DNA of 63,954 nucleotides from Snowella sp. (GTDB taxonomy: Bacteria; Cyanobacteriota; Cyanobacteriia; Cyanobacteriales; Microcystaceae), in contig QBMS01000006.1 of the NCBI GenBank assembly GCA_003249095.1, positions 14,814 to 78,767 of the forward strand, given 5' to 3'. Numbering within the stretch: the first letter of the stretch is position 1; the number at the start of each line of letters is the position of its first letter. The position numbers were made by a program, and so were the translations under genes. The notes under the pieces were generated by a model. That model was not told the DNA's origin. It searched no databases and was given only the letters and a program-made list of their open reading frames with translations. This document shows positions 1 to 60,419 of this stretch, piece after piece.

Positions 1-992
1 ATATTTTTTGAGCCATAAATATGTTTAACATTATTTGGTAAAATTATAGAACGAAACGAATATCTTAATTCCAAAAATAATGATTTTAAGTGCCGTTTTA
101 TTCGTCGTAGGAAGCGAAAAATTAAAGAGTGATAAGGTTGCATACCTATCGAGAAAGACCTCCATGTTTGTTTGTCTTTTACTCCCTGTTGACATAAATA
201 TTCCTTAATCCAATTTAGGTAAGCTAGGTGTGTTGCACTTTTTCCATACGGATTGTATCGTCCGTTTTTCTCCTCAAGAGAACAAGTAGAATTAGGATGT
301 TGTCGATACCTATCACAACATTCGCTGGTAACAAAAACAGGAGCTTTAAGATACACTTTTGCAAAAAAGGCTCTATCCTCGAACATTCCTCGAAAAGATT
401 CTTCAAATCCACCAATATTGTTAACTAACTCCCGACGTAGCAAGACACCACAGGTAGATGGTGCATTAATTTCACCCCGTAATAATAACTGTAAGAGCGT
501 TGGCGGCTGGTATAGTTTGTTTGGCTCGATAGAACCAATCTCTCGCATTGAGTCTTTTAAGGTATCTTCACGATTTCCCGTCCAACTGTACCAATATTGT
601 GTGGGCCCACAGACCATACCAGCCTCAGGTTCTGCTTCAAGGATTGCTACTTGTTTCTCTAGTTTTTGCGGTAACCAGATGTCATCTGCATCTAGAAAAG
701 CAATATACTCTCCTTTAGCGTGGCGAATACCTAGATTACGGGTGGCACTCATACCACGATTTTGATGCCCTTCATGCTCTACGTAACGTACTTTTTCTGG
801 ATATTGTTGAGCATATTGCAACGCGATTTCGGTACTTTCATCAGTTGAACCATCATCGGATAGTAAGAGTTCCCAATGGTCGTAGGTTTGGGCAAAAATG
901 CTTTCTATTGCTTCTATGAAAAACTTCTCGCCAGCATTAAAAAAAATGATAATACAGGAAACTAAAGGTTTATTATTTATTTGTTCAGCCAT
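1..992 (-). CDS. Family 2 glycosyltransferase, C-terminus outside window
   Basis: The frame opens at ATG 992-990 and stays open to the left edge, so at least 330 residues are visible and the 3' end is missing. It probably transfers a sugar from a nucleotide-sugar donor to a growing glycan at the inner membrane face. The GT-A fold signature is clear: the N-terminal VSCIIIFFNAGE strand, an LLSDDGSTD nucleotide-binding loop near residue 45 and a FLDADD metal motif near residue 105. A basic tail follows. It is a close paralogue of the genes at 1053-2045 and 4981-5919, and the N-terminal 110 residues are nearly the same in all three. Donor and acceptor cannot be told from the sequence. It is the most downstream visible member of the polysaccharide operon. 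Confidence 0.9.
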   Translation of the reverse strand, partial: MAEQINNKPLVSCIIIFFNAGEKFFIEAIESIFAQTYDHWELLLSDDGSTDESTEIALQYAQQYPEKVRYVEHEGHQNRGMSATRNLGIRHAKGEYIAFLDADDIWLPQKLEKQVAILEAEPEAGMVCGPTQYWYSWTGNREDTLKDSMREIGSIEPNKLYQPPTLLQLLLRGEINAPSTCGVLLRRELVNNIGGFEESFRGMFEDRAFFAKVYLKAPVFVTSECCDRYRQHPNSTCSLEEKNGRYNPYGKSATHLAYLNWIKEYLCQQGVKDKQTWRSFSIGMQPYHSLIFRFLRRIKRHLKSLFLELRYSFRSIILPNNVKHIYGSKN

Positions 993-1052
993 TAAAGCAC
1001 CTCAATAGTTGCTTAGAAATTTTGCTCTATTGCAGTTATTAGAATTTTGATT

Positions 1053-2045
1053 TCAGTCCGAAGTAGTTCCAATGTTATATTGGGATTTGAAAAAACGAAT
1101 AATGGCAATAGGTAATATCTGTTTTCCTATCCGTCTCACTAATTTTTTTATACGGTTTGTATTTTTCTGAAAAAATACTGCCAAAGTATATAAGGGCGTA
1201 TGCTTATAAGGAAACAATGCTTCATCAAGAGCCTTCCAGACTTGAGGAAATTGAATCTCTTGCTGAGACAAATATCTTTCTAGCCAAGTTAAATATTTTA
1301 AACGTTCAACCTTCTGATTGTCTTTTCTAATTATTGTAGGCGCACTTTGCCAGTAACTATTAGGGTGTATTCGATACCAATCCCAGCATTTACTAGATAC
1401 GAATACCGACGCATTCAGAAAGACTTTAGAGTGAAAAACCATATCTTCATTGGCAGTTCTAAATTCTTCTTCAAATACTCCTATCTCTTCAAATACTTTA
1501 CGTCGTATCAAAATACTACAAATACAAGGGTAAATTTCCTGATCTAATAAGTGACAAATTAGCTGCATTGGTGGTTTAATCAAAGCATCAAACTCCGTAC
1601 TTGTTTTTGTTATAGAGTCACGCTTAAGATCTTCTGGATAACCCGTCCAACTATACCAAAATTTAGTCCTACCATAGAGCATTGCTGCTTCAGGATATCT
1701 CTGTAAAATGAGTACTTGTTCTTCTAATTTGTTTGGCAACCATACATCATCAGCATCTAGAAAAGCAACATATTCTCCTTTTATATGGTGAATTCCCAAA
1801 TTCCGAGCAGCACTCATTCCACGATTTTGGTGACCTTCATGTTCGAGATAGCATACTTTATCGGGATATTTTTCTGCGTATTGCAAGGCAATTTGTGTAC
1901 TTTTATCAGTAGAACCATCGTCTACTAACAATAGCTCCCAATTGTCATAGGTTTGAGCGAAGATACTTTCTATTGCTTCTGTGAAGAAATTTTCGCCAGC
2001 ATTTAAGAATATAATGATGCAAGAAACTAAAGGTTTTTGATTCAT
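1053..2045 (-). CDS. Family 2 glycosyltransferase
   Basis: A 330-residue GT2 enzyme, the usual length for a soluble or peripherally bound member. Motifs seen are LLLVDDGSTD near residue 41 (nucleotide-sugar binding) and FLDADDVW near residue 95 (the DxD-type metal site), followed by a WYSWTGYPED stretch shared with its two paralogues. The C-terminal half differs from the paralogues most, which suggests different acceptors. It starts 4 bases downstream of the deacetylase stop, so the two are very probably co-transcribed and may be translationally coupled. It probably adds one residue of the repeat unit exported by the neighbouring ABC system; specificity is not predictable. Confidence 0.93.
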   Translation of the reverse strand: MNQKPLVSCIIIFLNAGENFFTEAIESIFAQTYDNWELLLVDDGSTDKSTQIALQYAEKYPDKVCYLEHEGHQNRGMSAARNLGIHHIKGEYVAFLDADDVWLPNKLEEQVLILQRYPEAAMLYGRTKFWYSWTGYPEDLKRDSITKTSTEFDALIKPPMQLICHLLDQEIYPCICSILIRRKVFEEIGVFEEEFRTANEDMVFHSKVFLNASVFVSSKCWDWYRIHPNSYWQSAPTIIRKDNQKVERLKYLTWLERYLSQQEIQFPQVWKALDEALFPYKHTPLYTLAVFFQKNTNRIKKLVRRIGKQILPIAIIRFFKSQYNIGTTSD

Positions 2046-2049
2046 TTTT

Positions 2050-3087
2050 TTAGCTATTAAACCATTTTAATAATTGATTTTCAAATTGTTTTTTATCCCA
2101 ATTCTCGGCATCGAAACGGGGCAATTGAAAATGATCACTCTTTGGCCAGATAATATCTTGATCAGTAGAACAAGTGCAGTTAAATCCACAGTTTTTAACT
2201 ATTTCAATAGTTTCTGCGCTGCGATCGCCAAAGGGATAAGAGAAGCTCGTCACTGGACGATTGATCATCTGTTCTAAATCTATTTTGCTTTGTTTGATTT
2301 CATCTCGTTGCAATGTTATCGATTGTGCTGAGAGAAAAGGATGAGTAACGGTATGAGCCCCAATTTCCACTAATTCCCCTTCTGCTAAGGCAGATAATTC
2401 TTCAGGTAAAAGAGAACGATGGGTAGCACGTGGTGTGGGTTCTGCCACAGCCCATTCAAGAATCTCGTCCAATATTTTTTGACGTTCCTCTTTCAGTAAA
2501 GATCGTAATACTTGCCAAATTGAGTAATAAAAAAATAAGCGAGAGCCTGGTTTCGCTTTCCATGTTTTACAAGTGCGATCGCGTTGACAATCTTCCTCTG
2601 TATAATTTGCTGCTTGATCCAAGTTCCATTGATAAACATTACCACCGATAGTTAGACGTAGTTTTTCTGGTAATTTTTTCGGTTGTAAAATAAGCCGCTC
2701 TAGTTCGTCCCACCAAAATTCACGGTTTTGGCCAATATAGCCAGTACTGATAAAGAAAGTAGCTGGAATATTATATTTTTCTAATAAAGGTTTGGCGTGG
2801 TAAAAATTATCAGCATAACCGTCATCAAAAGTCACAACGACCGCTCGCTCTGGAATTCTATTCTCTCCCAGAGCTTTTACCAGTTGCTGAAGGCTAAGGG
2901 GATTATAATATTTTTGTAAAACTTCTAGATGTTCATTAAAATGTTGTGGTGTCACACATAAACACCAAGGATCTCTCTTTACCTGAGCGACGCGATGGTA
3001 CGTTAAAATTAATCCTTTAGAAGAAGTTAACTTTTTTTGTAATCGCGTTAATACTCGCTGTAACTTATTTGTTCTAAGAATCTTCAT
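2050..3087 (-). CDS. Polysaccharide deacetylase (NodB-type)
   Basis: A 345-residue NodB-homology deacetylase. The catalytic base and metal motif TFDDGYADN is near residue 86, the metal-binding histidines sit in HTVTHPFLS near residue 243, and a YPFGDR motif follows near residue 285, in the order typical of carbohydrate esterase family 4. No signal peptide is evident, so it probably acts on a cytoplasmic or lipid-linked sugar intermediate rather than on peptidoglycan. Its start overlaps the upstream methyltransferase stop by 4 bases and its stop lies 4 bases before the next glycosyltransferase, so it is embedded in the operon. A role in removing N-acetyl groups from a glycan residue is inferred. 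Confidence 0.88.
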   Translation of the reverse strand: MKILRTNKLQRVLTRLQKKLTSSKGLILTYHRVAQVKRDPWCLCVTPQHFNEHLEVLQKYYNPLSLQQLVKALGENRIPERAVVVTFDDGYADNFYHAKPLLEKYNIPATFFISTGYIGQNREFWWDELERLILQPKKLPEKLRLTIGGNVYQWNLDQAANYTEEDCQRDRTCKTWKAKPGSRLFFYYSIWQVLRSLLKEERQKILDEILEWAVAEPTPRATHRSLLPEELSALAEGELVEIGAHTVTHPFLSAQSITLQRDEIKQSKIDLEQMINRPVTSFSYPFGDRSAETIEIVKNCGFNCTCSTDQDIIWPKSDHFQLPRFDAENWDKKQFENQLLKWFNS

Positions 3088-3866
3088 TGTCTAACACCAG
3101 GTTTTACTGCTCTAACAGTAATCAGGACTTGATAACTAGGGTCATAATAATTCAACTCCTTTGGGCTAAGTTCCTGACTAGATAGTCCCTCTAAAAAAGC
3201 TGTCGCTGCCAACACATTGCCATAGGTTTCCACTTGAATATTCTCCTTTGGAAAAGTCTCTAAAAAAAGTCTCTGTGCAGAGGCAGTTGTAAAACCCCAA
3301 TACCAACAAGATGAACCCCAACTTTTATCGTCTTTTCCAGGCTCTAATATGGGAGTAAGATTCGGAAGAGTTGCCAACAAAACTCCACCAGGTTTTAAAA
3401 TGCGGTAAATTGTTTTCACTGCACTTCGTACATCATAGAGATATTGCAGTGTTTGAGTCAGGATAAAGCAGTCAAAGATATCAGATGGAATTTGAGGTGC
3501 ATCAGTCAGATCTCCAACTATCGTAGCTTTTGGATTGTCTTCTATCACGTGAAGCACATCACTTTTTGTAACTTTGTTTCCGCCGAATTTCTGAGTGTAA
3601 GAGTTATCCGCAATTTCTAATACACTCCCTTGAATATCATCGGAATAGGAAGCCAGAAAATTTTCAATATAGTAACGATCAATTGGCTGTCCTCGTTCTA
3701 TTCCCCAATTATCACTGATTGGTTTTAATCGACGTAGATCGCCTAGATGTACTTTACCTATTGGTGGATCATGTTTATAAGTCTTCCATTGAGTTTTAAG
3801 CCAATGGAAAACATCCGATGGTAAGGTTTGTTGTGCTATTAGCTTTAATTGTTGGTTATTGATCAT
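3084..3866 (-). CDS. SAM-dependent methyltransferase, polysaccharide cluster type
   Basis: 260 residues. A class I methyltransferase core is recognisable: strand 1 VLEIADNSYTQKFGG near residue 83, an acidic SDVLHV strand, GDLTDAPQIP, and the post-motif RILKPGGVLLATLPN near residue 165. Motif I lacks the normal GxGxG and instead carries an unusual DNxYTxKFGG segment, which its paralogue at 4168-4935 shares. The two proteins look roughly 60 percent identical by eye and share an ID(R)YYIE region near residue 60. It overlaps the deacetylase by 4 bases. It probably methylates a sugar or a terminal residue of the exported glycan; the acceptor is unknown. Confidence 0.85.
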   Translation of the reverse strand: MINNQQLKLIAQQTLPSDVFHWLKTQWKTYKHDPPIGKVHLGDLRRLKPISDNWGIERGQPIDRYYIENFLASYSDDIQGSVLEIADNSYTQKFGGNKVTKSDVLHVIEDNPKATIVGDLTDAPQIPSDIFDCFILTQTLQYLYDVRSAVKTIYRILKPGGVLLATLPNLTPILEPGKDDKSWGSSCWYWGFTTASAQRLFLETFPKENIQVETYGNVLAATAFLEGLSSQELSPKELNYYDPSYQVLITVRAVKPGVRQ

Positions 3867-3989
3867 GATTACTTCTATCTGTTTTTGTAAACAACATATA
3901 CAGTACTTATCGGGATCTCAACGTACACTTTTTTTCTATAAACCTTACTGAATAAGTTTTTTACGTCGTGTCTATATATCGCAATGAAA

Positions 3990-4130
3990 CAAAGTACTAT
4001 GTGCTTCTTTTGCATGACAGACACCTAAATTTTTTGTTGTACTCATGCCAGGATTTTGATACCATTCATATTTTAATTAAAAAAATTATAATATAGGAAA
4101 TTAATGGATAAATATTTATCTGTTTAGTCA
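3990..4130 (-). pseudogene. Decayed family 2 glycosyltransferase remnant
   Basis: This stretch between the two methyltransferase genes aligns with two separate parts of the glycosyltransferase at 4981-5919. Bases 3995-4075 match about 5625-5705 (the region encoding the AKGAYIAF to EHEGHKNRG part), and bases about 4076-4130 match about 5860-5919 (the start of the gene). Roughly 150 bases between the two are missing, and point changes have removed the reading frame. Order and strand agree with a deleted, formerly intact GT2 copy. It is the fourth member of the duplicated set and cannot be translated. Confidence 0.75.
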
Positions 4131-4167
4131 TTTGTTATTTTAATAAGTGTACTTATTTCCCTGATTT

Positions 4168-4935
4168 TTATAAAGTTACCTCAGTTTTTAAGGCTCTAAT
4201 TGTGATTAACATTTCATAATCAGGATCATCATAGTTTAGCTCTCCCTTTTGTAATTCCTGAGTCGCTATTCCTTGTAAGAAACAGGTTGCTGCCAGTACG
4301 TTTCCATGAGCTTTTATCTCAACTTGTTTTGATGGAAATACCTCTTCAAATAACTTTTGGGTAGATACAGTGGTCAAATTCCAACACCATGAGCCAGAAT
4401 CGCCCCAGTCGGCATTACTAATATGGCTAATACCTGGAAAAGTTACTAACAAAGTACCACCTGGTTTTAAAATACGATAGAGTGTTTTTAATGCAGATTT
4501 TATATCATAAATTAGATGCAATGTCTGTGTAATAATAATGCAATCAAAGGTGTTTAATGGAATATGTTCAGCATTAGTTAGATCACCAATAATAGTGACT
4601 TTAGAGCTTGCTTTTTCTACGTTCAGTACATCGCTTTTAATGACCTGATTGCCGCCAAATTTTTCTGTATAATAATTGTCCGCGATCTCTAATACATGAC
4701 CCCGAATATCTGCAACATGGTCGGACAGAAATTTTTCTATATAATAGCGATCAATTGGCATTCCTCGATCAAATCCAAACTCCCGACTAATCGGCGTTAA
4801 GCGTCGTAGACTACCGAAGTTTACATGACCGACTGGTGGACAATATTCAATTCCTGTGAATTGAGCTACCAACCAATTATGGGCAGGTGCCAGGAATGTA
4901 TATTTTGCTAGTTGTTTTAAATAGGTTGTATTCAT
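4168..4935 (-). CDS. SAM-dependent methyltransferase, paralogue of 3084-3866
   Basis: 255 residues, clearly paralogous to the methyltransferase at 3084-3866. The same landmarks occur in the same order: RGMPIDRYYIEKFL near residue 58, VLEIADNYYTEKFGG near residue 80, SDVLNVE, GDLTNAEHIP, and RILKPGGTLLVTFPG near residue 160. As in the paralogue, the SAM loop is DNYYTEKFGG rather than a glycine-rich GxGxG. It lies 45 bases downstream of a GT2 gene, so GT2 and methyltransferase form a unit that appears twice in this cluster. Probably modifies a glycan residue; the acceptor is unknown. Confidence 0.85.
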   Translation of the reverse strand: MNTTYLKQLAKYTFLAPAHNWLVAQFTGIEYCPPVGHVNFGSLRRLTPISREFGFDRGMPIDRYYIEKFLSDHVADIRGHVLEIADNYYTEKFGGNQVIKSDVLNVEKASSKVTIIGDLTNAEHIPLNTFDCIIITQTLHLIYDIKSALKTLYRILKPGGTLLVTFPGISHISNADWGDSGSWCWNLTTVSTQKLFEEVFPSKQVEIKAHGNVLAATCFLQGIATQELQKGELNYDDPDYEMLITIRALKTEVTL

Positions 4936-4980
4936 GAGAATTATGACAATTAAAAATGATAATTGAGTAAAGAATAGTGA

Positions 4981-5919
4981 CTATCTTATTTGTTGAACTA
5001 GTGCTTTCATCTTTATGGCTAAAGCTCTAGACTTATTTTTTAGTTTTGACAAAATGGGATAGCGAGAAGACCATAACTGTTCTTGAAAAGCTTGCCAGAC
5101 TTCTGGCTCCTTTACTCCTTGTTCAATTAAATATTTTTCTAGCCAGTAAAAAAAGAACAAGCGTCCTTGATATTTTTGTCTTCTTTTCTGAGCCAAAGCA
5201 CAGCAAGAGTTTGGGTGCTGACGATATTTTGACCAACATTCGCTGGCGACAAAGACAGGAGCTTTAAGATAAACCTTGGCGTAAAATGCTTGATCTTCAT
5301 AAAGTCCACGAAAGCTTTCTTCAAATCCGTTAATTTCTTCTATTAATTTGCGTCTTATCATAAGACTACAAGTACAAGGTATAGCATCTCCATTTTTTAA
5401 AAAGAGAATTAGTAGTTTTGGTGGTCTGAACAAGGTATTAGGTTGTCTAGTCATTTCTGCCACTTCATCACAAAATTCTTTTTGATTATCTTCAGGATTT
5501 CCTGTCCAGCTATACCAATATTGAGTGTTGCCATAGACCATTCCTGCATCAGGTTGACTAGAAAGTATTGTTACCTGTCGTTCCAAATTTTCTCTCAACC
5601 AAACATCATCAGCATCTAGAAATGCAATATATGCTCCTTTTGCATGACGAATACCTAAATTTCTTGTTGCACTCATGCCACGATTTTTGTGTCCTTCATG
5701 TTCTAAATAAGACACTTTGTCAGAGTATTGTTGAGCATACTGTTTGGCGATCGCGGTACTACTATCAGTCGAACCATCATCTACTAACAAAAGTTCCCAA
5801 TTGTCATAGGTCTGAGCAAAAACACTTTCTATTGCTTCCTCAAAAAAAAATTCTTTCTTGGCATTAAAAAAAATCATGATGCAGGAAACTAATGGATTAC
5901 GATTTATCTGCTCAGTCAT
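4981..5919 (-). CDS. Family 2 glycosyltransferase
   Basis: 312 residues, GT-A fold. The LLLVDDGSTD loop is near residue 43, FLDADDVW near residue 97, and WYSWTGNPED near residue 140. It differs from the paralogue at 1053-2045 by a slightly longer N-terminus (KKEFFFEEAIES) and a shorter C-terminal tail rich in lysine and arginine, which could hold it at the inner membrane. It lies between the kinase-like/methyltransferase fusion gene upstream (93-base gap) and a methyltransferase downstream. It probably extends the glycan exported by Wzm/Wzt. Confidence 0.92.
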   Translation of the reverse strand: MTEQINRNPLVSCIMIFFNAKKEFFFEEAIESVFAQTYDNWELLLVDDGSTDSSTAIAKQYAQQYSDKVSYLEHEGHKNRGMSATRNLGIRHAKGAYIAFLDADDVWLRENLERQVTILSSQPDAGMVYGNTQYWYSWTGNPEDNQKEFCDEVAEMTRQPNTLFRPPKLLILFLKNGDAIPCTCSLMIRRKLIEEINGFEESFRGLYEDQAFYAKVYLKAPVFVASECWSKYRQHPNSCCALAQKRRQKYQGRLFFFYWLEKYLIEQGVKEPEVWQAFQEQLWSSRYPILSKLKNKSRALAIKMKALVQQIR

Positions 5920-6012
5920 TAAATTTTCTTCCTAATTATTTTTAAATTTAACTTGTTGTTACAATACATCCATATTTTTTGCAAGATCATTACTTTTGCT
6001 TGAGCATATCTT

Positions 6013-54628: not shown

Positions 54629-54826
54629 ATGATGATGAACTCTACTGAATCTATCCCAATTTCTCCTCCCCAACTTTCTGCTGAAGCATTGGCGATCGCT
54701 CGATTGAAAGATGAAGACGATCCGAGTCAATGGGTTACGCTTGTTGAAGCAGGCGAAGACATTGATATTGAAAAGGATTTAGAATATTTAAAAAAACGTG
54801 GCTACAAAATCCAGATATCAAGTTAA
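54629..54826 (+). CDS. Putative antitoxin upstream of a RelE-type toxin
   Basis: 65 residues, acidic, with LKDEDDPSQWVTLVEAGEDI and a helical end KDLEYLKKRGYKI. The gene overlaps the following toxin-like gene by 29 bases. No named antitoxin family is certain; the call rests on size, acidity and position. Confidence 0.6.
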   Translation: MMMNSTESIPISPPQLSAEALAIARLKDEDDPSQWVTLVEAGEDIDIEKDLEYLKKRGYKIQISS

Positions 54827-55121
54827 AATCAATGATCAAGTTATAAAAAAAGACTTGATTCAATTGCCGACCTATCTTAAGAAAGATTTTGAAGCAATTT
54901 GTAGAACAATTCTCACTCAAGATCCCTATAACTGTTTTGGACTCGATAGCCATAATCTCAAAGGAGATTTGATTCATCATCGGGCTATTGAGATTGATGA
55001 TAATGGTATCAGTTACCGTTTGGTTTATCGCATTTATGAAAAACCTATTCCTAAAAGGGTTGTGGTTTTGAGTTTTGCAAAGCATGATCCAGCTTATGAT
55101 CGAGCAAAGGAACGTAAATAA
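54798..55121 (+). CDS. RelE-superfamily toxin-like protein
   Basis: 107 residues from GTG 54798. The RelE-like core is LPTYLKKDFEAICRTILTQD near residue 23 and YRLVYRIYEKPIPKRVVVLS near 75, with a lysine/arginine-rich end. The start overlaps the antitoxin, so the pair is coupled. DUF2442 follows 30 bp later; that family often accompanies toxin genes. Confidence 0.75.
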   Translation: MATKSRYQVKINDQVIKKDLIQLPTYLKKDFEAICRTILTQDPYNCFGLDSHNLKGDLIHHRAIEIDDNGISYRLVYRIYEKPIPKRVVVLSFAKHDPAYDRAKERK

Positions 55122-55151
55122 ACGCTTTTTTCTATTCAGATAAAATTTAGC

Positions 55152-55418
55152 ATGAATGTTTTAAAAGTCCAGGTAGATGAAAGAGTTCGCAATGTTCATT
55201 TCACAGAGGAAACGATTAGTGTTGATATGATGGATGGTCGCACTATTACGGTTCCTTTGGTTTGGTATCCTCGATTATTAAATGCAACAACCGAGCAACG
55301 TTCTCAATGGGAAGTTTGTGGTGGCGGTTTTGGAATTCACTGGGAGGAGATTGATGAGAATTTGAGTACGGAGGGATTGCTTAGAGGTATTCCTGCTCCA
55401 TCTTCACAGTTTCGATAA
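55152..55418 (+). CDS. DUF2442 protein
   Basis: 88 residues. The DUF2442 pattern is clear: VRNVHFTEETISVDMMDGRT near residue 12, VPLVWYPRLLNATTEQRSQW near 35 and GFGIHWEEIDENLSTEGLL near 58. The family behaves like an antitoxin or toxin-adjacent DNA-related protein and is widespread in cyanobacteria. It lies 30 bp after the RelE-like gene. Function is not established. Confidence 0.88.
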   Translation: MNVLKVQVDERVRNVHFTEETISVDMMDGRTITVPLVWYPRLLNATTEQRSQWEVCGGGFGIHWEEIDENLSTEGLLRGIPAPSSQFR

Positions 55419-56195: not shown

Positions 56196-56317
56196 TCTTT
56201 AGAGTGTTATCACTAAGGTGAATGGAAATAAAAATCAACTAATGCGATCGCGATTTTTATAACTTGATGATCCCAAAATGTTAATCAATTACTACCGAAG
56301 TTGGAGCAATAACTGCA

Positions 56318-56944
56318 ATGCTAACAACACAAAGAAGCGATCGCGTTGTTTTAAATCATTTGAGTTGGCAACAATTTCAAAATTTATTAGACGATTTAGG
56401 CGACAATCGTTCAGCGAGAATTGCCTATGACAATGGCTCCCTGGAAATTATGACACCATTACCCGAACACGAATATTACAAACAAGCCATTAGTATTGTG
56501 ATCGAAGATATGGCTGAGGTATTAGAACAAGACTATGAGTGTCTAGGATCTAGTACCTGGAAGCGAGAAGTCAAAAAAGCAGGCATCGAACCAGATAATT
56601 GTTTTTATTTCCAAAATGAATCATTAATTCGAGGTAAATTAGTTTTTGATTTAGACCATGATCCTCCTCCTGATCTGGCATTAGAAATTGACCTGACTAG
56701 TAAATCTTTAGACCGTTTTCCGATCTATTCTCGTTTAGCTGTACCAGAAATTTGGTGTTATGATTCAGGTGTATTAAAAATTTATCAACTTGAACAAGGA
56801 ACATATTTAGAGCATTCTCAAAGTCTAATTTTTCCTACTCTTAAAATTCAAGAAATACCTGATTTAATTGAAGCTTATCGTTATCTAGGGCGTAGAAAGT
56901 TTCGTCAGGCTGTTCGGAAATGGGTAAAAGAACAGAATCCATGA
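56318..56944 (+). CDS. Uma2-family (DUF820) putative endonuclease
   Basis: 208 residues. The family lies within the PD-(D/E)xK superfamily: ARIAYDNGSLEIMTPLPEHE near residue 33, PDNCFYFQNE near 92 and PPDLALEIDLTSKS near 113 with D and ExD/K-like residues. Uma2 proteins are greatly expanded in cyanobacteria; a nuclease function is predicted, not shown. A truncated second copy lies at 57977-58161 after the DNA methylase gene, and a common GCGATCGCGA(T/C)TTTTATAA leader (56244 and 56982) precedes both, showing a past duplication. Confidence 0.88.
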   Translation: MLTTQRSDRVVLNHLSWQQFQNLLDDLGDNRSARIAYDNGSLEIMTPLPEHEYYKQAISIVIEDMAEVLEQDYECLGSSTWKREVKKAGIEPDNCFYFQNESLIRGKLVFDLDHDPPPDLALEIDLTSKSLDRFPIYSRLAVPEIWCYDSGVLKIYQLEQGTYLEHSQSLIFPTLKIQEIPDLIEAYRYLGRRKFRQAVRKWVKEQNP

Positions 56945-57009
56945 TGGCTTTCTAGGGGATCAGGTTGAATAAAATTTTATAGCGATCGCGACTTTTATAA
57001 CTTGGCGAT

Positions 57010-57976
57010 TATTTGTTATTTACTCATCTAACAAAGGTAAAATAAAGAAAAACTCAAGTTATTAACTCAAGTTATTAAATTTAGTGAAGTCTTGACTTAT
57101 GATTAAAAGTCCGTTGCGCTACCCAGGCGGAAAGCAAAAAGCGATCGCAAAAATTGCTAACTATTTACCTCCATCATTTCAAGAATATCGAGAACCCTTT
57201 ATTGGTGGCGGTTCAGTCTTTTTTCATGTTCTTCAAACTGGCTCTTCTTTGAATTATTGGATCAATGACCTAAACGAAGAACTGTATCATTTTTGGTTGC
57301 AATCTAAAATAAACTTAACCGAATTAGTTGATCTTGTTTGGGATATTAAGAAGAATAAAACTGATGGACGAGCTTTATTTAAGTATTTAGCAAAAGCTGA
57401 CACGACTAAAATGACTTCTTTAGAAAGAGCCGTTCGTTTTTTTGTACTTAATCGTATTAGTTTTTCTGGAACTATTGAAAGTGGGGGTTATTCTGAAGCC
57501 TCCTTTATCGGCAGATTTACTAACTCTTCTATTGATAGACTCGCCGCTTTAGATCAATTTTTAGTAAATACTCAGATAACTAATTTAGATTACGGACAAC
57601 TTATTGAAAAACCAGGAAAGGATGTGTTTATTTTCCTAGATCCTCCCTACTTGAGCAATCGTGAATCTAAACTTTATGGAAAAAAAGGTAATTTACATAC
57701 ATTTTTTGATCATAAACGCTTTGCACAATTAATGAAAGATTGTCCTCACAAATGGCTCATTACTTATGATGATTGTGAAGAAGTTAGAGATAATTTCTCG
57801 TTTGCATTTATTTATGAATGGAAATTACAATATGGAATGAATAACTATAAACAAGAAAAAGCTAAAAAAGGAGATGAACTTTTTATTACAAATTATCCAG
57901 TTAATCAATCTAATTTCATGACATCAGTTAAATAGGTTTAATCAAAATTTTCCACAAAATATAACCTTGTCAGTTA
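57010..57976. mobile_element. Inferred inserted segment carrying the adenine methylase
   Basis: Uma2 copy 1 has leader 56244-56270 followed within 50 bases by its ATG. Copy 2 has a matching leader at 56982-57008, but its coding remnant does not resume until 57977. The roughly 967 bp between, holding the D12 methylase, fits an insertion into the second copy. Ends are not resolved to the base and no transposase is present. Confidence 0.55.
57099..57935 (+). CDS. D12-class DNA N6-adenine methyltransferase
   Basis: 278 residues. Motifs of the Dam/D12 class occur in order: SPLRYPGGKQKAIAKIANYL near residue 3, EPFIGGGSVFFHV near 32, and FIFLDPPYLSN near 178 with the catalytic DPPY. It methylates adenine in a short DNA sequence; the target is unknown. 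It is solitary (no adjacent restriction gene; the MmeI-like protein is 18 kb away) and lies in a segment that interrupts a second Uma2 copy. An orphan, regulatory or protective methylase is the likely role. Confidence 0.93.
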   Translation: MIKSPLRYPGGKQKAIAKIANYLPPSFQEYREPFIGGGSVFFHVLQTGSSLNYWINDLNEELYHFWLQSKINLTELVDLVWDIKKNKTDGRALFKYLAKADTTKMTSLERAVRFFVLNRISFSGTIESGGYSEASFIGRFTNSSIDRLAALDQFLVNTQITNLDYGQLIEKPGKDVFIFLDPPYLSNRESKLYGKKGNLHTFFDHKRFAQLMKDCPHKWLITYDDCEEVRDNFSFAFIYEWKLQYGMNNYKQEKAKKGDELFITNYPVNQSNFMTSVK

Positions 57977-58161
57977 TGTTGGAATCAGTGACTACCGAAG
58001 TTGGAGCAATAACTGCAATGCTAACAACACAAGGAAGCGATCGCATTATTTTACATCATTTAATCTTTAATCTGGCAACAATTTCAAAATTTATTAGACG
58101 ATTTAAGTGACAATCGTTATTACCCGAACACAAATATTACAAACAAGCCATTAGTATTGTG
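57977..58161 (+). pseudogene. Truncated, frameshifted Uma2 fragment
   Basis: Nucleotide-level copy of about 56277-56500, including the leader TTGGAGCAATAACTGCAATG and the ATG at 58018. After the LTTQ(R/G)SDR start it contains a roughly 8-base insertion near 58062, a deletion of about 46 bases near 58116 and then resumes with ACAAACAAGCCATTAGTATT. Homology stops at 58161. The frame is destroyed. Confidence 0.88.
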
Positions 58162-58354: not shown

Positions 58355-58873
58355 TCACTCCGTTTTTTTAAAATTTCCCACCTTAACCCAGCCTTCCTGG
58401 CCTCCATCCACTGATCGCACCTTTGCCCAAACCCCATCCGCACTGGTTTCGAGAATAATCAACTCTTGATCATAGTCCACCCCACTGACCCGCTCCGAGT
58501 CCTTACTAGGATTAGACCGTAAACTCAGCCCTCCCGACCAAGTGACCTTTGCTTTATAGGCTCCCTTGGGCAAATCTTCCTTAGCTTCAGGCGATGGAGA
58601 AGGAGACGGACTCACTTCAGGAGAGGGAGATTCAGTAGCCGCCTTGGGACTAGGGGAAACTTCGGGTTTAGCCGCAGATTTTTCAGAGGCTTTTTTATCA
58701 GGAGTCGTTGCTTTGACTTTAGATTTATTTTCTTCAGAAAAAACAGGTTTATTCGGAGTCGCCGCCAAACGGGAAAACATCAAATAGCCAAGGGCTGAGG
58801 TTAAACCGACTAAAATCGTGATTCCCAGAAAAAAACCTAAAATAAATTGTAATAAACCAGAAAAACGTTTCAT
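58355..58873 (-). CDS. SH3-domain protein with membrane anchor
   Basis: 172 residues. One N-terminal helix (FILGFFLGITILVGLTSALG) anchors it, then a Ser/Pro/Lys-rich linker with PSPEVSPSPSPSPEAK, then a bacterial SH3-type domain starting near residue 107: AKVTWSGGLSLRSNPSKDSE and the end WAKVRSVDGGQEGWVKVGNF. Bacterial SH3 domains usually bind peptidoglycan or peptides. It lies 34 bp from the end of the AAA gene on the same strand. Confidence 0.85.
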   Translation of the reverse strand: MKRFSGLLQFILGFFLGITILVGLTSALGYLMFSRLAATPNKPVFSEENKSKVKATTPDKKASEKSAAKPEVSPSPKAATESPSPEVSPSPSPSPEAKEDLPKGAYKAKVTWSGGLSLRSNPSKDSERVSGVDYDQELIILETSADGVWAKVRSVDGGQEGWVKVGNFKKTE

Positions 58874-58907
58874 ATTTTTTTTTAAATTAAGAATGATAGA
58901 AAAAAAA

Positions 58908-60419
58908 TTAACTCAGTGAGGTTTGAATCCTTCCAAAACGACTATCACGGGATGCCAATCGAGCTTTACCCGCAGCCGCCCAATCTTGTAAAAATTGAAT
59001 TTGTTCTTGTGCTGTGCGTGCTAGGGGAATGATTTGACTAGCGGCTTCTAGGATATCATCGGTGAAAAAATCCCGATTTTGACTAAACCCAATGTGCATT
59101 GCTTCGATTAAAGTCTGCTCTATTTCTGCCCCTGAAAAATCAGGCGTTTCGTAGGCAAGGCGTTTAATATCATAATCCTTAATATTATGCAAACGCAATC
59201 GAGATAAATGGACGTTAAAAATGGCTTCTCGTTCCTCCTGGGAGGGTAAACCGACAAAGAATATTTCGTCGAAACGACCTTTTCGGAGCATTTCTGGCGG
59301 TAAAGCCTGAATATTATTGGCAGTTGCCACCACAAACACAGGGGTCGTTTTTTCCGCTAACCAGTTAATAAAGGTTCCAAAGACCCGACTAGTAGTTCCT
59401 CCGTCCCCTTTTCCTTCGATTCCTGCAAAGGCTTTGTCAATTTCATCAATCCAGAGAACGCAGGGAGCTAGAGCTTCAGCTAGACTAATCATTTGTCGTG
59501 TGCGAGATTCCGATTCTCCTACTAATCCTGCAAACAATCGCCCTACATCTAAACGCAATAGGGGTAAGTGCCAATGGTGGGAAATAGCTTTGGCGGTTAG
59601 AGATTTACCCGTTCCCTGGATGCCGACTAATAGGAGTCCGCGAGGATGGGGTAAACCGTAGGCTCTGGCTTTTTCGCTAAAGGCATTGCCCCGACGCAAT
59701 AACCAGTCCTTGAGGTTATCCAAGCCCCCAATATCGGTGATTTGCTCCGTCGCAGGATGAAAATCTAAAATTTGGGTCTGGCGGATGGATTGGCGTTTTT
59801 CTTCGAGAATCAGTTCTACATCTTCGGGTTCAATTTGTCCATGACTGGCGAGGCAACGGGTGAGGACGCGACGAATTCGTTCTAAAGATAATCCCTGGGC
59901 GGAACGGGTCAGTTCGTCTAGTAATTTAGGGTCGAGGGATTGACCCATTGAGGCGATTAATCGTTGGATTTCGGTTTTTATTTCGTTAGCACTGGGCAGG
60001 GGAAAGTCAACAACGGTCAAGACTTCGGTTAATTCGGTCGGAATTTGGAGATGGGGGGCGATAATAATCAGATTTTTCGGTTGGGATTTAAGCTTGCGGG
60101 CTAGGTTTCGCAATTTACGAGAGATAGATACGTCTTCCAAGAAACGGTGAAAGTCTCGCAAAATGAAGACTCCGCCCACTTTATCGGGCAGTTTTTCGAT
60201 AAATTCTAGGGCTTGTAAGGGGTTACGCTTACCGACATTTTCGTTGTTGGGGTTATCCTGATAGCCTTCGACAAAATCCCAGAGATAGACGGCCCGATCG
60301 CCTAATCGTTTGGCACAGTCTGCGATCGCACTTTCAACCCGCTCTTCTTCGGGGGTAGGGATATAAATCAGGGGATAACAGGCTCTCAGGAGTAATTCAA
60401 ACTCGCTACTAAAAGTCAT
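58908..60419 (-). CDS. AAA-family ATPase, Ycf46-like
   Basis: 503 residues. N-terminal domain (about 1-230) of unknown function, then an AAA core with Walker A LLLVGIQGTGKSLTAKAIS near residue 262, Walker B CVLWIDEIDKAFAGIEG near 320 and sensor 2/arginine-finger region LPPEMLRKGRFDEIFF near 375. It matches the cyanobacterial/plastid Ycf46-type family. Ycf46 relatives have been linked to CO2-dependent photosynthetic acclimation in Synechocystis; the exact role here is inferred. Confidence 0.87.
   Translation of the reverse strand: MTFSSEFELLLRACYPLIYIPTPEEERVESAIADCAKRLGDRAVYLWDFVEGYQDNPNNENVGKRNPLQALEFIEKLPDKVGGVFILRDFHRFLEDVSISRKLRNLARKLKSQPKNLIIIAPHLQIPTELTEVLTVVDFPLPSANEIKTEIQRLIASMGQSLDPKLLDELTRSAQGLSLERIRRVLTRCLASHGQIEPEDVELILEEKRQSIRQTQILDFHPATEQITDIGGLDNLKDWLLRRGNAFSEKARAYGLPHPRGLLLVGIQGTGKSLTAKAISHHWHLPLLRLDVGRLFAGLVGESESRTRQMISLAEALAPCVLWIDEIDKAFAGIEGKGDGGTTSRVFGTFINWLAEKTTPVFVVATANNIQALPPEMLRKGRFDEIFFVGLPSQEEREAIFNVHLSRLRLHNIKDYDIKRLAYETPDFSGAEIEQTLIEAMHIGFSQNRDFFTDDILEAASQIIPLARTAQEQIQFLQDWAAAGKARLASRDSRFGRIQTSLS

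Follow-up and report, generated by a model that had tools for sequence, protein, structure and literature searches.

A probable GGCC N4-cytosine methyltransferase of a restriction-linked lineage beside a duplicated and decayed Uma2 gene in a probable gene-turnover islet of Snowella

The closest described relatives of the methylase reported here act on GGCC. In the available portions of the papers that describe it, M.CbeI is placed among the alpha-class N4-cytosine methyltransferases and carries a DPPY motif (PMC8616854); its target is GGCC, and it shares 57% identity with DmtB of Anabaena variabilis (PMC3425538). M.Ssp6803II (Sll0729) of Synechocystis 6803 makes GGm4CC, and GGCC methylation is described as widespread in cyanobacteria in the accessible part of that report (PMC6560206), which also finds that loss of sll0729 caused the largest change in growth and pigment among the Synechocystis methylase mutants. 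The GGCC enzyme Alr1052 of Anabaena belongs to the same Pfam family as a GATC enzyme, and the source of that statement, in the portion available, further describes HIP1-linked recombination and the insertion of SDR5 in HIP1 (Elhai, PMC4390886). Here, we describe a methylase of this kind that stands between an intact and a broken copy of a Uma2 gene. The window, by which we mean the whole stretch of DNA that was analysed, comprises 63,954 nt of Snowella sp. (GCA_003249095.1, contig QBMS01000006.1, positions 14,814-78,767, forward strand). The features of the locus are as follows.

54629..55418, + strand: small genes on the left side of the islet, taken from the ORF list (a 65-aa ORF, a RelE-like 107-aa ORF and a DUF2442 88-aa ORF)
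56244..56271, + strand: leader copy 1 (W1), one of the genome's four strong copies of a HIP1-bearing repeat, 46 nt upstream of the Uma2 start codon
56318..56944, + strand: intact Uma2 gene, 208 aa (PF05685, 71.9 bits; PADLOC PDC-S17, 142 bits)
56982..57009, + strand: leader copy 2 (W2), a direct repeat of W1 between Uma2 and the methylase, found by self-alignment and by genome pattern and profile searches
57099..57935, + strand: D12-type methylase, 278 aa, a probable GGCC N4-cytosine methyltransferase of the M.CbeI/DmtB kind (PF02086, match to 7m6b, tree, purifying selection)
57983..58161, + strand: decayed 5' portion of a second Uma2 copy, recognized by similarity to copy 1
58355-58873, - strand: SH3-domain gene (SH3_3), part of the conserved right border
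58908-60419, - strand: AAA ATPase gene, within the conserved right border of 58355..60419

The layout of two leaders, an intact Uma2 gene, a D12 methylase and a Uma2 remnant had been put forward in the original prediction, and the open reading frames, Pfam searches and self-alignment all agree with it. The block between the second leader and the remnant is likewise present, and its size needs a small correction: by ungapped homology it spans 57010-57982 and measures 973 bp, while the earlier figure of 967 bp rests on a remnant start at 57977 that falls inside the uncertainty of the boundary. On the left of the locus, the DUF2442 ORF matches PF10387 (E 7.1e-24), and the RelE-like ORF scores 20.6 bits against RelE_StbE, under the cut-off of 27.9. 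To the right, 13 of 15 relatives' loci have the SH3 gene no more than 1.6 kb from the AAA gene, the two being directly adjacent in 11, and the other two loci (L134 and L136) lack it. Neither the methylase nor this Uma2 was found at the SH3-AAA border in any of the 15 loci, and the window's left-flank genes were not found there either; as the left flank is not syntenic in relatives, an exact empty site could not be drawn. No integrase or transposase was seen among the neighbours scanned. The locus looks like a turnover islet of small selfish or defence-like genes beside conserved genes, that is, like ordinary gene turnover. We note that glycosyltransferase-like and methyltransferase-like stretches are also duplicated in the first 6 kb of the window (positions 1-6000; for example, 648-996 and 1713-2061), which suggests another turnover region there.

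What the methylase modifies can be predicted from its relatives. The protein matches PF02086 (E 7e-40) and, over residues 1-270, the structure of M.CbeI (PDB 7m6b) at E 5.4e-91 and 308 bits; the next solved structure reached 8e-16, and the matches to DpnII-type and E. coli-type Dam were far weaker than that to 7m6b. The similarity to this characterized GGCC N4-cytosine enzyme extends over the full length, and the translated motifs FLDPPY and EPFIGGGSVFF align with 7m6b as the DPPY motif and the SAM-binding FxGxG-type motif, respectively, with the meaning given to such motifs in the available text of PMC3425538. Moreover, the model for Dam/DmtA GATC adenine methylases (TIGR00571) gave 105.2 bits and missed its cut-off of 114.85 by about 10 bits. 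The original prediction had called the gene an adenine methylase, a label that follows the Pfam name of the D12 family; the 7m6b match and the literature instead point to an N4-cytosine (GGCC) enzyme. By analogy with M.CbeI, we conclude that the methylase most likely transfers a methyl group from SAM to N4 of a cytosine within GGCC by means of a DPPY active site. The gene is under purifying selection, as comparison with its counterpart in genome G049 over 276 codons gave dN 0.13 and dS 1.11. Thus, the enzyme resembles M.CbeI and DmtB in its full-length match, DPPY motif, D12 family membership and near kin linked to HaeIII-type restriction genes, and differs in that no restriction gene was found in the window and in that its activity is a prediction.

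Where the methylase came from is indicated by a tree of 56 rows, in which links to restriction were labelled by examination of neighbouring genes. The window methylase pairs with that of G049 (100/98) inside an eight-row clade (100/98) that also holds G006, G007, G044 and three Nostocales rows, two of these Nostocales having an upstream HaeIII-like gene. The family's usual copy forms a separate clade of 15 rows (100/99), one of which is also restriction linked, and over the whole tree the 19 restriction-linked rows are scattered, with 11 changes. In Nostoc LEGE 06077, the neighbour of a methylase relative matches Pfam RE_HaeIII at E 9e-21. Moreover, seven cyanobacterial plasmids carry methylase relatives at 60-80% identity, three of them annotated with a HaeIII-family enzyme, and on p057_E of Nostoc sp. 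C057, a plasmid typed as mobilizable, the methylase relative and a HaeIII-type gene overlap by 8 nt. The plasmid relatives nearest to the window methylase are 70-73% identical, which points to no particular donor. Five restriction proteins of relatives had no match in the window at E 1e-3, and no complete type II restriction-modification system is apparent there.

Methylase relatives of at least 56% identity over most of the protein occur in 42 of the 50 genomes of the GTDB family, the Snowella genome included, and in many of them the matched stretch is reported to contain a stop codon; one further genome (G037) has fragments at 50-53%, and the remaining seven have distant matches only. The likeness to M.Ssp6803II, which is by description (PMC6560206, in the portion available) and not by identity to Sll0729, is that the same subfamily is present in those 42 genomes; the difference is that the window copy groups with restriction-linked rows and not with the family's usual clade. 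No second close relative of the methylase was found in the Snowella genome. Three relatives (G001, G010 and G036) carry an 86-aa gene after the methylase; in Snowella, two small ORFs (113 and 98 aa) stand before the 86-aa gene (C234:90-341), with no methylase within the 1,841 bases examined. An 86-aa gene that lacks its methylase neighbour, together with the lack of another close relative in the genome, suggests that the native copy was replaced by a related one. The genome is a draft of 237 contigs, with completeness given as 99.98%; as one contig ends at the 86-aa gene, the native methylase could be absent from the assembly only. We note that the two small ORFs at what is the native methylase site of the three relatives (G000:C234:438-1072; L291) resemble by eye what we take to be a DUF5615/DUF433-type pair. 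In S. salina, the methylase adjoins an accA-type gene, and sll0729 of Synechocystis presumably adjoins accA. The available portion of the report on the Synechocystis methylases (PMC6560206) makes no mention of accA.

How the methylase came to stand here is best accounted for, in our view and with moderate confidence, by horizontal acquisition from a restriction-linked lineage without the restriction partner, followed by replacement of the native GGCC methylase, in a turnover islet that also holds a duplicated and decayed Uma2 gene. The aligned copies show that the Uma2 gene duplicated in tandem and that one of the two then decayed. A stand-alone alpha-class methyltransferase, whose lineage the tree and gene neighbours link to HaeIII/CbeI-type restriction genes, some of them on plasmids, would have entered by horizontal transfer, with the restriction gene either lost or never brought along. 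It may then have displaced the GGCC methylase that is usual in the family and that was not found in this genome. The gene would likely persist because GGCC methylation has to be maintained and not because of a cassette mechanism, and the phenotype of sll0729 loss, as described in the available part of PMC6560206, makes such a need plausible.

The duplication and decay of Uma2 can be read from the alignment. The intact ORF belongs to Uma2, a common nuclease-like family (PF05685, E 5.7e-20, 71.9 bits, cut-off 27), and the PADLOC candidate defence model PDC-S17 (142 bits, E 3.7e-42) outscores the Pfam model. Copies 1 and 2 align at 56283-56361 and 57983-58061 (92% identity), at 56359-56411 and 58066-58118 (91%), and at 56458-56500 and 58119-58161 (98%); about 46 bp of copy 1 (56412-56457) is absent from copy 2, which also carries a 7-nt net insertion, and similarity ends after 58161. 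The earlier proposal of a tandem Uma2 duplication followed by decay of one copy is, at the level of sequence, borne out by the aligned segments and the deletion. Indeed, duplication and decay of Uma2 are routine in this genome, which has 67 matches to the gene, several as adjacent pairs; at other loci fetched from the genome, tandem copies extend over 593 nt (90%) and 700 nt (89%), and truncated copies over 90-97 nt. In another genome of the order (G347), for which no methylase match is listed at E 1e-60, this Uma2 subfamily is matched at two neighbouring stretches (C1:1150089-1150596 and 1150730-1151254). The locus thus resembles the general expansion of Uma2 paralogues in its 67 matches, tandem pairs and truncated copies and differs in that a methylase stands between the intact and the broken copy.

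The repeat that precedes both Uma2 and the methylase is a separate matter. W1 (56244-56271) and W2 (56982-57009) are identical at 25 of 28 positions. The pair is beyond chance, as the best other match to W1 on either strand of the window has eight mismatches and a reversed control pattern had no match in the whole genome. With up to three mismatches, the pattern occurs at six places in the genome, two being the window pair and two lying 643 bp apart on contig C166. A sequence-profile search returned four copies at E 5e-8 to 1.8e-6, and the next match stood at 0.018. These four strong copies form two direct-repeat pairs, one around the window Uma2 and one around a DUF4258/YgiT toxin-antitoxin-like pair on C166. 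The repeat had been described as a Uma2 leader, and the unrelated genes within the second pair show that it is not specific to Uma2. A family-wide repeat was also considered and rejected, as the 49 other genomes gave three matches at up to two mismatches versus one for the control, which we regard as noise; the exact core pattern was absent from viral contigs. We conclude that the 28-bp element is a genome-specific HIP1-bearing repeat that need not be the cut-off front of a second Uma2 copy.

According to the original prediction, leader and Uma2 were duplicated together, and the methylase then entered the second copy, separating its leader from its body. The spacing agrees with such an insertion, as leader and duplicated body are separated by 11 nt in copy 1 and 973 bp in copy 2, in the right order, and an insertion between W2 and the remnant is thus possible. 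Because the leader also brackets the unrelated pair on C166, however, W2 is unsafe as the severed front of a second Uma2 copy. Moreover, outside the repeat W1 and W2 are alike only at chance level (36 of 250 random stretches reach the observed score downstream and 30 of 250 upstream), and no signal of the remnant's own leader was seen upstream of it, 559 of 1,500 random and 517 of 1,000 GC-matched stretches being as good. Comparison of W1 with the C166 copy labelled C166a was matched by 3 of 250 random stretches, and that of the sequences downstream of W2 and C166a by 5 of 250, which is suggestive only. Proposed checks on relatives and on insertion ends likewise gave no support: no ends could be defined, no target duplication was seen, and no uninterrupted second copy was found in relatives. 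Besides the window, no match row covered both Uma2 and the methylase across 388 genomes from the order, each represented by no more than two scored stretches at E 1e-60 or better. We regard an insertion into the second copy as unlikely. The further suggestion of a cassette that moves DNA methylases fared no better, as relatives' methylases occur in varied contexts and flanking direct repeats are rare. Direct repeats scoring at least 18 flanked the methylase in only 2 of 40 rows (L064 and L149; the 40 rows represent 31 distinct loci, 9 of them fetched twice), and a cassette recurrently bounded by direct repeats was rejected on that basis. The highest inverted-repeat score was 15, and the window gene scored 9. 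We find no sign of a cassette that moves methylases.

Alternatively, the repeat could be a shared promoter or regulatory element that chances to precede four genes. All four copies do lie about 41-111 nt before a start codon and in the same direction as the gene that follows (Uma2, the methylase, the DUF4258 gene and a HEAT-like gene), but no promoter-like site coincides with the leaders (3 in the region versus 8.2 expected in shuffles) and no strong copies precede other genes, which leaves this reading quite doubtful. Uma2 and the methylase might also act together as a restriction-modification pair, since they lie 154 bp apart on the same strand and Uma2 is annotated as a putative restriction endonuclease. 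Similarity to Uma2, however, lies beside the methylase in only 3 of 65 loci (L055, L063 and L149, repeat fetches included), about 5 kb off in L143 and weakly in L219, and in relatives the methylase is partnered by HaeIII-type or other type II enzymes; we consider such a pair extremely improbable.

Perhaps small defence or toxin-antitoxin cargos enter and exit the genome of this cyanobacterium at ~30-bp HIP1-bearing direct repeats, through recombination there and without a transposase. The same direct repeat brackets two unrelated cargos, the one on C166 being a two-gene unit of DUF4258 (PF14076) and a YgiT-type zinc finger (TIGR03831). The C166 cargo shares 89% identity with G049:C1:6359450-6360082, whereas its flanking genes have their G049 counterparts elsewhere, at 72-75%, and the match (875-1507 of L167) terminates within each of the two repeats (846-879 and 1489-1522). 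A further G049 copy, which is partial, shares the end base on one side; as the two copies in G049 agree at 98% over 300 nt, the shared base is not independent evidence. Among Uma2 genes, 6 of the 64 (of 67) with both flanks available had flanking direct repeats scoring at least 15, versus 10 of 2,004 swapped pairs (a random half of all pairs, the two highest scoring being tandem neighbours); among 45 window ORFs of at least 150 aa, one besides Uma2 reached 15. There were also earlier hints, in the available part of PMC4390886, that HIP1 takes part in site-specific recombination. Against this, only two pairs exist, many repeats in Uma2 islets are remnants of coding copies, no empty site was seen, and the G049 cargo copies adjoin a different HIP1-type repeat, so the repeat does not travel with the cargo. 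The C166 cargo had no plasmid match. We consider a role of the repeat in cargo traffic improbable. The resemblance to the HIP1-linked recombination and SDR5 described in the available part of PMC4390886 is that the window and C166 repeats contain HIP1 and stand at cargo edges; here, however, some 28-34 bp are common rather than HIP1 alone, and genes, not a repeat module, lie between. HIP1-bounded gene cargos found no description in titles and abstract openings of the literature on HIP1 and DUF820 or, among the matches listed, on Uma2, M.Ssp6803II and M.CbeI.

Repeats occur three times at some other Uma2 loci. At L186 (G000:C160:82800-86000), a repeat of about 35-63 bp lies near 513, 1202 and 1992; the first two copies enclose a YoeB-type toxin-antitoxin pair and the last two a Uma2 gene. 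At L188 (G000:C111:63400-66400), a DUF4160/DUF2442 pair and a Uma2 gene are set apart by repeats near 284, 974-994 and 2053-2061. We considered integron-like arrays for these loci and claim none, because several of the repeats are remnants of coding copies.

Base composition marks the islet rather than the methylase. The methylase has a GC3 of 22%, versus 36-43% in three core genes, but Uma2 (22.5%) is as AT rich at third positions. GGCC is under-represented in the genome's own sequence (observed/expected ratio [O/E], 0.53) and likewise in several relatives, and the deficit thus has no bearing on methylase activity. A separate observation is that CCGG is almost absent, with 3 occurrences in the window (1-63954) and 11 in about 217 kb of the genome's own Uma2 loci (with some overlap; O/E, 0.03), versus O/E values of 0.34-0.92 in stretches of 11 relatives. 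The scarcity points to strong restriction at CCGG or to some other genome-specific bias.

Cyanobacterial members of this subfamily that bear the D12 name "adenine methylases" are probably N4-cytosine enzymes that act on GGCC, and a likely misreading of their annotation is thereby corrected. Were HIP1-bearing repeats to mark the traffic of small cargos after all, HIP1, an old puzzle of cyanobacterial genomes, would gain a concrete and testable role in gene traffic. Ultimately, the Snowella gene is a probable case of a methylase from a restriction-linked lineage taking over the post of a solitary methylase.
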